Positions 4,072 to 20,579 of a stretch of DNA of 20,579 bases are shown piece by piece (position 1 is the first letter of the stretch; each line of letters opens with the position of its first letter). The DNA comes from Candidatus Omnitrophota bacterium. Lineage in GTDB: Bacteria; Omnitrophota; Koll11; VGKN01. The position numbers and the translations under genes are program-made. The notes below the pieces were generated by a model, which saw only the letters and a program-made list of their open reading frames with translations, searched no databases and was not told the DNA's origin. Location of the stretch: NCBI GenBank assembly GCA_016867055.1, contig VGKN01000002.1, forward strand, positions 1 through 20,579. The letters are read 5' to 3'.

Positions 4072-4977
4072 ATGAATATCGTTAAGGTTTACCCCATACC
4101 TCGTAGGACCCCCCTTCTTGCTTTCGCAAGAAAGCAGGGTGGGATGAAGGCTGTAGCCGATAAATTTTTCCCCAAAGCCTCGTCCTTTAGGATGAGGTGT
4201 GGGGTTTACTATCCATTTTTCTTAGTCCTTATAAGTCTTTTTAATGTTACAGGATGTTCCACTTTATATAGCGTTAAGGGTCATAAGGAAGAGATAATTT
4301 TTATTGACTCTGACAAAGAAACAAGGATTGGCGAAAACATTTCTGAACAAGTAAAAAGAAATTTTAAATTTATTGAGGACAAACAAACTAATGAAAAAGT
4401 TTGTACCATCGGTAAAAAAATTGCAGATACCTGCCAAAGAAAGGAAATATATTTTCAATTTTTTGTTTTGGATGGGGATGAGGTTAATGCCTTTTCTCTA
4501 CCCGGGGGATTCGTCTATATAAATAATGGACTTATCAAAAAGGTTAAAAGTGATGATGAATTGGCATCTGTTATTGCACATGAAGTGGCACATATAGCGC
4601 AGCGCCATGCAATTAAAAGACTTGAAAACTCCATAGGCTATTCAGCGTTAAAAATATTAACCTTAAATATCCCTCAAGACCCACTTACAATAAGAAATTC
4701 AAATTTCGCTTTTACCCAGCTTTTGCTTTCCTATTCAAGAGAAGATGAGATAGAGGCAGATATTCTATCCGTTGAATATTTAAGGACAGCGGGTTTTGAC
4801 CCCTCTGCAATATTGAGTTTTCTTATAACTCTAAGGGATATTCAAATGAAAGAATCTATTAAACCAAAGATCCGTTTTAGAACACACCCTTACATTTCTG
4901 AAAGAATAGCAGCAGTTAAAAGAGAGATTTATGGAAAAAGAGATTTTAATGATTATATAAATACTATAGAAAAATAG
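4072..4977 (+). CDS. M48-family metalloprotease lipoprotein, N-terminus interrupted in frame by a palindromic element
   Basis: Periplasmic zinc protease, like BepA or Loi-type M48 proteins. The catalytic HEVAH is at residues 170-174 and the downstream EIEAD ligand motif (E228, D230) is present, counting from the ATG at 4072. A lipobox (VTGC, Cys62) follows a hydrophobic segment, so the mature protein should be lipidated. The 61 residues before this Cys are far longer than a signal peptide. Removing the 117-bp repeat element (4087-4209) gives a 22-residue signal peptide before the Cys, beginning MNIVKVYYPFF. Other in-frame starts are ATG 4144, after AGGGTGGG, and ATG 4192, which would give a 21-residue signal peptide before the Cys. 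The frame has no stop through the element. The start actually used is uncertain; the protease domain call is firm. Confidence 0.85.
   Translation: MNIVKVYPIPRRTPLLAFARKQGGMKAVADKFFPKASSFRMRCGVYYPFFLVLISLFNVTGCSTLYSVKGHKEEIIFIDSDKETRIGENISEQVKRNFKFIEDKQTNEKVCTIGKKIADTCQRKEIYFQFFVLDGDEVNAFSLPGGFVYINNGLIKKVKSDDELASVIAHEVAHIAQRHAIKRLENSIGYSALKILTLNIPQDPLTIRNSNFAFTQLLLSYSREDEIEADILSVEYLRTAGFDPSAILSFLITLRDIQMKESIKPKIRFRTHPYISERIAAVKREIYGKRDFNDYINTIEK
4087..4209 (+). mobile_element. Palindromic non-autonomous element, IS200/IS605-end-like, inserted in frame in the M48 gene
   Basis: A 6-bp direct repeat GTTTAC (4087-4092 and 4204-4209) bounds a segment with imperfect terminal inverted repeats: CCCCATACCTCGT on the left (4092-4104) against CCCCACACCTCAT on the complement of the right end (4204-4192). 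Inside are two hairpins. One is TTCTTGC-TTTC-GCAAGAA (4115-4132), flanked by C6 opposite GGGTGGG. The other is CCTCGTCC-TTTA-GGATGAGG (4178-4197), flanked by CCCC/GGGG. Subterminal hairpins and a TTTAC-type sequence at both boundaries resemble IS200/IS605 ends, which insert 3' of a short target, rather than a DDE element. No transposase is present. Net insertion is 117 bp, or 39 codons, which keeps the host frame. Confidence 0.7.
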
Positions 4978-18696: not shown

Positions 18697-19410
18697 TTAT
18701 TCATTCATCCTGAATGAAATTATAACACTTAAATTAAGACTTTTCTTTTGAACACTATCTGGAAAGGGAGGAAAAGGAGTTGCCTCTTTTATTCCTCTTA
18801 GGGCAGCCTCTTTTAATATAGAACTATTTGTTGACTCCTCATCCAGCACTAAAACATCCATAAGTTGACCATTTTTTAAAAGTATAAAATTTACGTATAT
18901 ATCTCCCTCTATCTGCCTTTTCGGATATTTAACTGAACGCCTTATCAATTCCCTGATTGATTTATAATAATTTTGATATGCAATATCCTCTTTAATGTCT
19001 TGTGATTTATTCTCTTTGAATTTCTCTTGGGCATTTTCGGTTTCTTCTTTTTTTAACCGCTCCTGAATTTTAACAAAACTATCTTCTGTTTTTAACATAT
19101 GGCTTTCATCTTGCCCGGCTGGTTTTTTCTTCTGTTGAACACTTTGACTGACTTTATCCTGTTTAGACTGAAGAATCTGCTGATTAACATTTGTATCTTC
19201 AGATAAAAGCAATTCTTTTTTTTGTATCAACTGTTGCTTTAAAAAATCTGTGTGCAGATTTACAAATTCTATATAGCTAATCTGCGGCTGAATAGAAAAT
19301 AACTCTTTCGGAAAAAATCTTATTTTAAAGAATGGCAAAAAAAATATGGAATGTATTGAAATTGAAATTAAAAGTGAAATTTTAAAAGAATTGCTGGGCC
19401 GGATCAACAT
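18697..19410 (-). CDS. tonB: Second TonB-family protein
   Basis: A 237-aa protein: membrane anchor about 9-30 with S16-x3-H20, the arrangement of E. coli TonB; a long Gln/Lys/Glu-rich spacer (about 60-140) without Pro repeats; a C-terminal TonB domain (about 150-235: SVKYPKRQIEGDIYVNFIL, LKNGQLMDVLVLDEES, FPPFP). It lies 54 bp after a TonB-dependent receptor and is probably the dedicated transducer for it. It differs strongly from the first TonB. The shared ExbBD may be the pair at the left of the window. Confidence 0.87.
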   Translation of the reverse strand: MLIRPSNSFKISLLISISIHSIFFLPFFKIRFFPKELFSIQPQISYIEFVNLHTDFLKQQLIQKKELLLSEDTNVNQQILQSKQDKVSQSVQQKKKPAGQDESHMLKTEDSFVKIQERLKKEETENAQEKFKENKSQDIKEDIAYQNYYKSIRELIRRSVKYPKRQIEGDIYVNFILLKNGQLMDVLVLDEESTNSSILKEAALRGIKEATPFPPFPDSVQKKSLNLSVIISFRMNE

Positions 19411-19464
19411 AGTATTGTTTATAAAAATTTTATTCAGGTATTATCCCATTTTTCAAAAATTCTG

Positions 19465-20579
19465 TCAAAATGTTTTCTTTACACCTGCGAAAAAAGAAAA
19501 TCCTGCGGTTGCATAACCTCTTACCTCTTCATATTTTTTATTTAGAAGATTTTCTATTGTGCAAAAAATATCAAAATTTTCGGTCACTTTATATCCCGCG
19601 GATAAATCAATTCTTGCGTATGGCTTCATCTTCTCCGTATTTGACGTGTTATCCCAACGATGACCAAAATAATTAAGTGAAGAGGTTATTTTTAAATTTT
19701 TAAATAAATCCCAATCTATATTCAGGCTGAATCTATCCTTGGGTCTTCTTGCTAATTCCTTACCGGTGGAATTATTGCGAGTATTTGTTCTGGTGTATGC
19801 ACAATCTATCTTATTTTTTTTAAAAGGTGTTATTGAAAAATTCAACTCAGAACCTGCGGTTTTCGCCTTGCCAATATTTCTGTATCTGTTAGTATCGAAA
19901 TCATAGTCAACCATATTTTTAAATAAATTATGGAAATAACCTGCCCCTACGAGTACATTCTCTGTAAAGTTCTTTTCTAAGGCGAGGTCATAACTAAGAC
20001 TCTCATCAGGTGTTAGGCAAGAATTACCATATGTTGGATCATAGAGTTGAAAAAGGGAAGGTGCTTTAAAACCTGTTCCAAAATTAGATTTTAGTCTTGT
20101 ATTGATCCTTTCAAAAAGATAGGAGGATGATAATTTGTAATTTATATCTGAGCCAAAACTCTGATTGTCATCTACCCTTATTCCAAGGGTTGTGAAAGAT
20201 TTTTCCCAAAGAGTAAGCTGATTCTGAATATAAAGTGCCTTGTTATTAACGGTTCTTCGATTAACATTTCTATGCGCTCCCCTCTCCTCTTCATATTCAA
20301 AACCACCTGTTATAGTATCCATATCAGAAATAAAAAAGTTGTTCTGCCAGTCAATTTTTTTATTATTTCCATAATACCAGTCATCATAGGCATCTAATGG
20401 GTCCTTTGAATCTGGATCATCTCTGTATCGTCTTTTAACATTAAGCCAGACTAGGTTTAACCTCTGCTCCCAAAAGTCTTTCAATCTATTAGAAAGCTGG
20501 GTCTTAAAAGCAAACGAATTGCTCTTAGCGATATAATTTGGGTCGTCATCATAGGCTGCATCATCAATATCTGCAATAG
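19465..20579 (-). CDS. TonB-dependent outer-membrane receptor, C-terminal part (BtuB-like, partial)
   Basis: The frame is open to the right edge (reading IADIDDAAYDD at the edge), so about 370 residues of the C-terminal barrel are present and the plug and TonB box are missing. Alternating strands cover the whole length. Family features: FGTGFKAPSLFQLYDPTYGN, LTPDESLSYDLALEKNF, GSELNFSI, and the end NLLNKKYEEVRGY...GVKKTF with a terminal Phe, the signal for barrel assembly. The PSLFQLY...G pattern resembles BtuB-type receptors for cobalamin, but siderophore uptake is not excluded. A TTG within the frame (20484) is an internal Leu, not a start. Confidence 0.88.
   Translation of the reverse strand, partial: IADIDDAAYDDDPNYIAKSNSFAFKTQLSNRLKDFWEQRLNLVWLNVKRRYRDDPDSKDPLDAYDDWYYGNNKKIDWQNNFFISDMDTITGGFEYEEERGAHRNVNRRTVNNKALYIQNQLTLWEKSFTTLGIRVDDNQSFGSDINYKLSSSYLFERINTRLKSNFGTGFKAPSLFQLYDPTYGNSCLTPDESLSYDLALEKNFTENVLVGAGYFHNLFKNMVDYDFDTNRYRNIGKAKTAGSELNFSITPFKKNKIDCAYTRTNTRNNSTGKELARRPKDRFSLNIDWDLFKNLKITSSLNYFGHRWDNTSNTEKMKPYARIDLSAGYKVTENFDIFCTIENLLNKKYEEVRGYATAGFSFFAGVKKTF

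Follow-up and report, generated by a model that had tools for sequence, protein, structure and literature searches.

The DNA stretch analysed here (20,579 nt of a Candidatus Omnitrophota contig, hereafter the window) carries an M48 lipoprotein metalloprotease gene at 4072–4977, whose 301-aa product contains the M48 peptidase domain at residues 105–285 (PF01435, E = 3.2e-32, Pfam on the window ORF). All features of this gene are given on the forward strand. The frame opens at the ATG at 4072 with MNIVKVY, passes through a palindromic segment between codons 7 and 46, and continues as YPFFLVLISLFNVTGC with no stop throughout. The 39 extra codons near the start are made up of a 113-bp element (4092–4204) and one copy of a 4-bp TTTA target-site duplication (113 + 4 = 117 bp = 39 codons), which stands at 4088–4091 on the left and at 4205–4208 on the right. 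The element begins with CCCC (4092–4095), ends with GGGG (4201–4204), and shows the inverted ends that had been claimed for it, namely CCCCATACCTCGT at 4092–4104 and ATGAGGTGTGGGG at 4192–4204 (13 bp, two G-T pairs); the lengths of both the ends and the duplication were derived from related copies. The original prediction had placed the segment between direct repeats of GTTTAC. That string is present at 4087–4092 and 4204–4209, but the duplication is best taken as the 4-bp TTTA rather than 6 bp, and the longer repeat is only apparent because the element ends supply a matching G and C beside TTTA. A constant GTTTAC repeat among copies was likewise discarded, as it was constant only when used as the query and a flank-free search showed the 4-bp duplication.

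Two hairpins are predicted within the element, an inner left one (CCCCCCTTCTTGCTTTCGCAAGAAAGCAGGGTGGG, 4109–4143) and a right one of the form CCCC..TTTA..GGGG (4170–4204). The fold of the 137-nt stretch 4080–4216 had a z-score of -3.25, with 1 of 200 shuffles as good, and GC content reached 51% in the 123-bp interval over the segment vs. 24–38% in non-overlapping intervals. No Rfam family matched the window at gathering thresholds, and window-wide searches revealed no second copy of the element (the palindrome finder reported 4092–4204 only).

The insertion lies in the n-region of the signal peptide, upstream of a hydrophobic stretch and of a lipobox that we read as VTGC. Counted from the ORF start, the lipobox Cys falls at residue 62, and taking out the 39 codons would bring it to residue 23, in agreement with the predicted signal peptide of 22 residues before the Cys. 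Because the insert sits in the n-region, the mature lipoprotein should be unchanged. The first three bases of the right inverted end form an in-frame ATG (4192, codon 41), which could act as an alternative start of the M48 protein; it would give 261 aa with the Cys at residue 22, like two of the closest orthologues (P0002 and P0003). Inspection by eye found no convincing ribosome-binding site for this ATG.

The four closest M48 orthologues (P0002–P0005; 260–261 aa, 68–75% identical in alignment) were all without the segment. In the locus of MAG DeMMO3_15 (Omnitrophota; L001), M48 occurs in the 260-aa form and the gene order, judged by eye, is that of the window (ExbB-, ExbD-, TonB-, SH3-, M48-, and LOG-like ORFs) except for the M50 gene that precedes M48 in the window; Pfam assignments cover the window's ORFs alone. 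The same locus has a 148-aa ORF (317–763) that precedes a gene judged by eye to be UvrA-like, and this ORF resembles a stack of repeat peptides rather than a protein. The window itself encodes two TonB-like C-terminal proteins (156–1875 and 18697–20484; Pfam), one behind ExbB/ExbD and the other adjoining a TonB-dependent receptor barrel. A search around the DeMMO3_15 genome found an M48 match in 97 of 117 genomes, itself included. Among 42 aligned M48 loci (some genomes twice), 10 alignments started before residue 46. The longest extensions opposite the segment had 8/34 identities (L011) and 10/36 identities (L352, containing a stop), and two further loci (L009 and L010) had 6 and 7 identities over the 13 residues opposite positions 33–45, all of which we take for chance similarity in the alignments. 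The M48 sites of relatives are too diverged for a single TTTA to be read at the DNA level, and the empty site was instead read for a copy in HemB (see below).

These comparisons bear on whether this protease lineage might long have possessed the 39 residues as a functional N-terminal extension. An intact ORF and the presence of the same M48 protein on three contigs speak for such an extension, yet the four closest orthologues do without the residues, no convincing counterpart appears in the 42 loci, and DNA-level relatives of the segment occur in unrelated places; we therefore regard an old extension as extremely improbable. The original prediction of a 117-bp palindromic, in-frame insertion in the signal-peptide region holds, given a stop-free segment that is absent from the four closest orthologues. 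It had also named two outcomes that would speak against it, conservation of the residues in diverse orthologues or a lack of both other copies and an empty site; we found close M48 relatives without the 39 residues, and copies and an empty site elsewhere. We consider the segment 4092–4204 with its TTTA confirmed as a genuine insertion.

Related Omnitrophota genomes carry further copies. The segment matched DNA in 8 of 22 Omnitrophota genomes (E up to 0.1) and in 15 of 117 relatives (E 0.001), and most of these matches were to the inner left hairpin, which elsewhere in the phylum occurs by itself or within different palindromes. The best match was a whole element of the same architecture (99 bp) in genome G006 (L073), to which positions 4168–4209 were 93% identical over 42 nt (E = 1.5e-11). 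At five loci (L074, L075, L081, L086, and L090), a hairpin CCCCCCTTCTTGCTTTCGCAAGAAAGCAGGGGGG and close variants of it lie inside other nested palindromes with no TTTA duplication, and this hairpin may be a repeat system of its own that became part of the window's element. Another palindromic repeat, roughly ATGAGCGCA..TTATGGAG..GACATAAG..TGCGCGAATTA, was seen in several Omnitrophota genomes (L073, L077, L082, and L132).

The class as a whole was searched with the pattern TTTACCCC(21–81 nt)GGGGTTTAC in 384 Omnitrophota genomes, a draw from the larger phylum. The pattern was detected in 62 of the 384 (5 hits for the reversed control pattern, counted from the table), and a longer-gap version in 45 (1 control hit). 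With 322 genomes lacking the short pattern, the class is patchy. Outside the phylum, 1 of 40 genomes contained the pattern, and that match is absent from the palindrome finder's list; the finder reported no element in loci from outside the Omnitrophota (629,431 bases), and the first 22 Omnitrophota loci (273,418 bases) yielded 2, both in L002. Element lengths range from about 30 to 150 bp across the class.

The target duplication was best seen in the commonest family (GTTAG; CCCCGTTAGARA..), which the flank-free search detected in 23 of 30 genomes. Among the 83 collected copies whose flanks were analysed, a subset of the matches of that search with loci L218–L223 included, an exact 4-bp repeat flanked 67 and a 5-bp repeat none, and a swapped-flank control gave a mean of 22.9 matches in 83. 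The duplicated letters were TTTA/TAAA in 56 of the 67, and the 11 others were TTCA/TGAA (6), CAAG, TGAG, TTAG, TTCG, and TTTG. A 4-bp duplication of this kind suggests staggered cleavage of the target by a trans-acting transposase. In two loci of genome G308 (L264, 1501–1610; L267, 1444–1553), two side-by-side elements share one 4-bp target copy, and the L264 pair lies inside a 606-aa PD-(D/E)XK nuclease ORF. Tandem copies sharing one TAAA (L264/L421) suggest insertion into the duplicated target beside an earlier copy.

The inverted ends were delimited by pairing. In 56 copies, found without requiring pairing beyond CCCC/GGGG, positions 5–13 of an arm paired with its own partner at 0.79–0.95 vs. 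0.26–0.75 with the partner of another copy, and at position 14 pairing fell to 0.21–0.22 with own and other partners alike. The 31 automatically fetched copies (L140–L169) behaved in the same way (0.81–0.97 at positions 5–13 and 0.16 at position 14). Pairing is thus sharp up to base 13 and lost at base 14, which sets the ends at 13 bp.

These properties bear directly on the mode of movement. The original prediction had assigned the element to the IS200/IS605 (PATE-like) group, that is, to IS200/IS605 or REP-type elements that a Y1 (HUH) transposase moves as single-stranded DNA, TTTAC serving as the fixed target and end. Some features are in line with this assignment: hairpins are present, the right hairpin with its TTTA loop resembles IS200/IS605 ends, TTTA is strongly preferred, and Y1_Tnp genes occur in 30 of 40 Omnitrophota genomes. 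IS200/IS605 elements, however, are not expected to have a target duplication or terminal inverted repeats, and here the duplications vary (11 of the 67 matching ones are not TTTA/TAAA) and the elements carry 13-bp terminal inverted repeats. Moreover, when Y1 loci were inspected for matching ends, as had been proposed, 0 of 30 loci examined (of 107 places) carried both TTTACCCC and GGGGTTTAC, and three genomes with copies (G006, G165, and G002) had no Y1 match, although their assemblies may be incomplete. The IS200/IS605 assignment is accordingly unlikely, and it was not upheld.

The sequence of the arms is the main puzzle of the class, as it varies between copies yet matches within each copy. 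There were 35 different nine-base arms in 52 well-paired copies, a count raised by hand-picked copies (L279–L303), many of which had been chosen for rarer families; the automatically fetched loci alone gave 17 in 27. Within the single genome G308, the matched variants include AAAT/ATTT, AAAC/GTTT, and GAGAC/GTCTC. Such variable but matched arms are hard to square with a single sequence-specific transposase, and either many families have their own enzymes or the stem itself is recognised. In the latter case the class would be the same, but its enzyme would bind the folded 13-bp stem (a CCCC/GGGG base and any matched arms), for example in single-stranded or cruciform DNA, and make the 4-bp staggered cut. 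The diversity of arms that match their own partner better, the sharp end at base 13, and the matched variants within one genome are consistent with stem recognition. Several families with their own transposases and ends would, nonetheless, look alike, the hand-picked rarer families inflate the arm count in the 56-copy set, and we know of no enzyme of this kind, so that we hold stem recognition as a tentative minority view.

Insert lengths (element plus 4 bp) tended to preserve the reading frame. They were multiples of three at 97 of 150 places for the short pattern (p = 5e-15) and at 87 of 134 for the longer-gap pattern (p = 1e-13); these places are those among the matches listed, part of all matches, and they are not independent, as families share lengths. 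The commonest long size, in 19 of the 134, was 117 bp, the size found in the window. Of 135 unique copies from the palindrome finder, 78 lay fully within an ORF, 33 were intergenic, and 24 fell at ORF ends, with ORFs called by a simple longest-first rule and no gene finder. Frame-neutral lengths accounted for 77 of the 78 copies in ORFs (47/47 internal, 27/28 near the start, and 3/3 near the end). The 78 coding copies include one in a 483-aa ORF that is not a multiple of three and may be a chance hit (L121), and three nested readings of the two tandem copies in L264. Remainders of 0, 1, and 2 numbered 12, 12, and 9 among the 33 intergenic copies and 9, 9, and 6 among the 24 at ORF ends. The counts within ORFs are biased towards multiples of three, because a frame-breaking copy splits its ORF and is scored as lying at an ORF end; the 97/150 and 87/134 counts are free of this bias. 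Of 605 random places in the same loci, 516 fell inside ORFs, vs. 78 of 135 for the copies, and this shortage of copies in genes is as expected under selection.

Part of the bias appears to be inherited. In the 652,855 bases of G308, the finder gave 41 raw hits vs. 2 in the reversed string, and these reduced to 36 non-overlapping copies. All 21 GTTAG-type copies, non-coding ones included, had lengths that are multiples of three (17 are 53 bp, and 17 have TTTA/TAAA), so that part of the frame bias reflects an inherited family length and not selection at each site; a frame-keeping length thus seems to be a family trait. The remaining copies comprised 13 of the GCACCTTC type, with mixed lengths and TTCA/TGAA in 10, and 2 of other types. 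A GCACCTTCT-type family in the same genome prefers TTCA/TGAA and has mixed lengths (L387, 8455–8532; L401, 3704–3750; L441, 8815–8887), unlike the GTTAG type, so that families differ both in length and in the duplication they prefer.

The same length data speak to whether the inserted codons are read at all. In phage T4 gene 60, ribosomes hop over part of the message, and the codons inserted here might similarly go untranslated, with the ribosome hopping the hairpin (byp-like) or the RNA being spliced. Direct repeats do flank the hairpin, as they would at take-off and landing sites, and byp elements are also described as palindromes inside genes in PMC6649704. Skipping, on the other hand, requires neither an open frame nor a length divisible by three, and the excess of such lengths is seen in the two counts made without conditioning on ORFs, making bypass or splicing very improbable in our view. 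Judging from the open frames, the inserts would be translated.

Internal copies were found in genes for HemB, PurH, a Mur ligase, MurJ, PriA, a tyrosine/tryptophan-type tRNA synthetase, DNA polymerase III delta', biotin ligase, an M20 peptidase, RACo, and others (Pfam). All 20 host proteins submitted had a Pfam match somewhere, not always across the insert. The HemB of genome G089 has 23 extra codons, and a search of 79 genomes, G089 among them, gave a HemB match in 38. All 19 relatives that were aligned, out of the 29 other loci fetched, lack exactly the insert columns, and in L307 the empty site reads AAAATAAAAATTATG at the DNA level, with TAAA once. In a structural model built on this alignment (354 residues, mean pLDDT 86.3), pLDDT drops below 50 at residues 193–213 and nowhere else, and this stretch lies between a helix and a strand. 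Solved HemB structures are matched by the model, and the sequence matches to those structures break at the same place. Orthologues with and without an insert are therefore available for HemB, for M48, and for a prepilin family (P0121/P0122 vs. P0123–P0153).

Copies in genes were concentrated near the start. In 33 of the 78 coding copies the element starts no more than 20 codons into the ORF, where uniform placing would put 7.9, and the excess persists without 15 strict prepilins (18 of 63; 5.9 expected). In 20 of the 33 leader copies the left end reads F/Y-T and the right end G-F/Y, and in 18 of these 20 the protein then continues T-x-x-E-hydrophobic as in prepilins, G[FTPLE..LTGF]TLxEL (the E was not required in this search, whereas the strict definition requires G-F and a downstream E, which are present in those 15 by construction). 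The prepilin cleavage motif accordingly hosts 18 of the 78 coding copies. The motif is a target because its G-F-T codons contain TTTA, and the right end of the element encodes T-G-F, by which G|F with Glu at +5 (G|FTxxE) is rebuilt. A cut at the rebuilt site would take the whole insert off with the leader. Of ten such prepilin-type proteins examined in Pfam, 6 matched N_methyl and/or type II secretion pilin families, and the remaining 4 had no such match. In one prepilin family with 35 hits, P0121 and P0122 are filled, P0123–P0153 are empty, and P0154 and P0155, which are less similar, are filled; all hits with an organism name are empty and all are Omnitrophota. P0155 carries two successive inserts, FTPLE..LTGF FTPLK..LTGF SLIE, and so has a doubled leader. 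In the 18 filled prepilins the upstream residue is Gly nine times, Ala six times, and S, P, and N once each; loss of the upstream Gly was considered as a sign that the rebuilt site is used and was set aside as non-discriminating, since A also occurs in 14 of 31 empty relatives. The copy in the window fits the leader rule, lying in a cleaved leader upstream of the hydrophobic core and lipobox.

Prepilins also hint at a wider distribution of the class. An insert of the same kind (FTPLE..TGF) is present in P0154, P0156, P0159, P0160, P0161, and P0234, the bodies of which we take to resemble Patescibacteria pilins; together with P0121, P0122, and P0155, at least 9 filled proteins occur among the 154 proteins listed (one search being the best 120 of 4570). 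Among the matches listed for that prepilin search, the best hit with an organism name was P0164 (Saccharimonadales). The class may thus extend to Patescibacteria, as far as can be read from these protein sequences. With regard to viral spread, which was considered and set aside, one exact window pattern gave 0 viral hits, and the GTTAG pattern matched two viral contigs. One match (L354) was rejected, as it looks like a terminator hairpin and has no duplication; in the other, a 5.1-kb contig filed as viral (L355), a GTTAG-type element at 555–610 has TCTG on both flanks.

Taken together, our preferred reading (probability roughly 0.92) is that the window's segment is a copy of an Omnitrophota class of short, non-autonomous palindromic mobile elements, found in and between genes and likely inserted by a transposase-type 4-bp cut. 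An element of this class would start with CCCC, end with GGGG, carry 13-bp inverted ends, and insert with a 4-bp duplication, preferably of TTTA/TAAA. As element plus duplication would usually be stop-free and a multiple of three, the host gene would stay open and ~16–41 extra residues would be read. Movement would be MITE-like, of the cut-and-paste or copy-and-paste type, with an enzyme encoded elsewhere cutting the target in a 4-bp stagger. Copies would persist where the extra residues are harmless, in flexible loops and often in cleaved leader peptides. Searches for an autonomous partner gave six long candidates, none convincing, among end pairs 0.2–6 kb apart in the 652,855 bases of G308, and none among the first 40 of the 58 unpaired ends in fetched loci. 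A more far-reaching version, in which coding palindromes across the phylum are moved via a folded 13-bp stem of free sequence with 4-bp staggered insertion at TTTA, and in which the main family brings its own prepilin-peptidase site, is removable with the leader, and may reach Patescibacteria, is conceivable but speculative.

The preferred reading of the class gives several predictions: families would inherit a frame-neutral length, cleaved leaders would offer safe havens, and essential enzymes would accept 15–25 foreign residues in their loops. There is also a caution for annotation, in that extra peptides such as FTPLE..LTGF and NPVRN..SNGV in Omnitrophota proteins would be mobile-element code and not domains. 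Our search of open-licence papers for Omnitrophota or Patescibacteria palindromes or MITEs, and for in-frame prepilin insertions, found none on this class among the titles and abstract openings listed.

Compared with known systems, the Omnitrophota elements share hairpins and a strong target preference with IS200/IS605 PATEs and with REP/RAYT, but have a duplication and terminal inverted repeats, which are not expected in those groups. Like the byp elements of Magnusiomyces mitochondria, described in PMC6649704, they are palindromes that interrupt genes; unlike byp elements, which are bypassed in translation, their lengths tend to keep the frame. Bacterial MITEs (Correia/NEMIS, ERIC, YPAL, and others) are portrayed in PMC2229807 as mainly intergenic with occasional in-frame fusions, one of which, of YPAL, forms part of a signal peptide. 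The Omnitrophota elements resemble MITEs in being short and non-autonomous, with terminal inverted repeats and a target duplication, but their end sequence varies among copies, and frame-keeping lengths were found in 21/21 GTTAG copies of G308. The closest known kind is the Rickettsia palindromic elements (RPEs), a clear precedent that we liken by kind and not by sequence kinship. RPEs and Wolbachia palindromic elements are short palindromes in several families, found in frame in unrelated conserved genes, where they give rise to additional peptide segments, as well as in intergenic regions (PMC10969869, PMC2229807, and PMC3767692). RPEs are 105–146 bp with 12-bp ends and a target duplication given as unknown, and the RPE insert of Rickettsia gmk is translated and the protein active (PMC2229807); the review PMC10969869 also singles out Rickettsia as having in-frame palindromes in its protein genes unusually often. 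Both groups place in-frame palindromes in conserved genes and have orthologues with and without the insert, whereas the Omnitrophota class differs in its length (~30–150 bp), its 4-bp TTTA duplication, its 13-bp variable but matched ends, and its prepilin hotspot. The Omnitrophota class shows an RPE-like habit in a phylum far from Rickettsia, and its numerous copies, together with clear duplications and empty sites that can be read exactly, allow a test of how such DNA survives in proteins.
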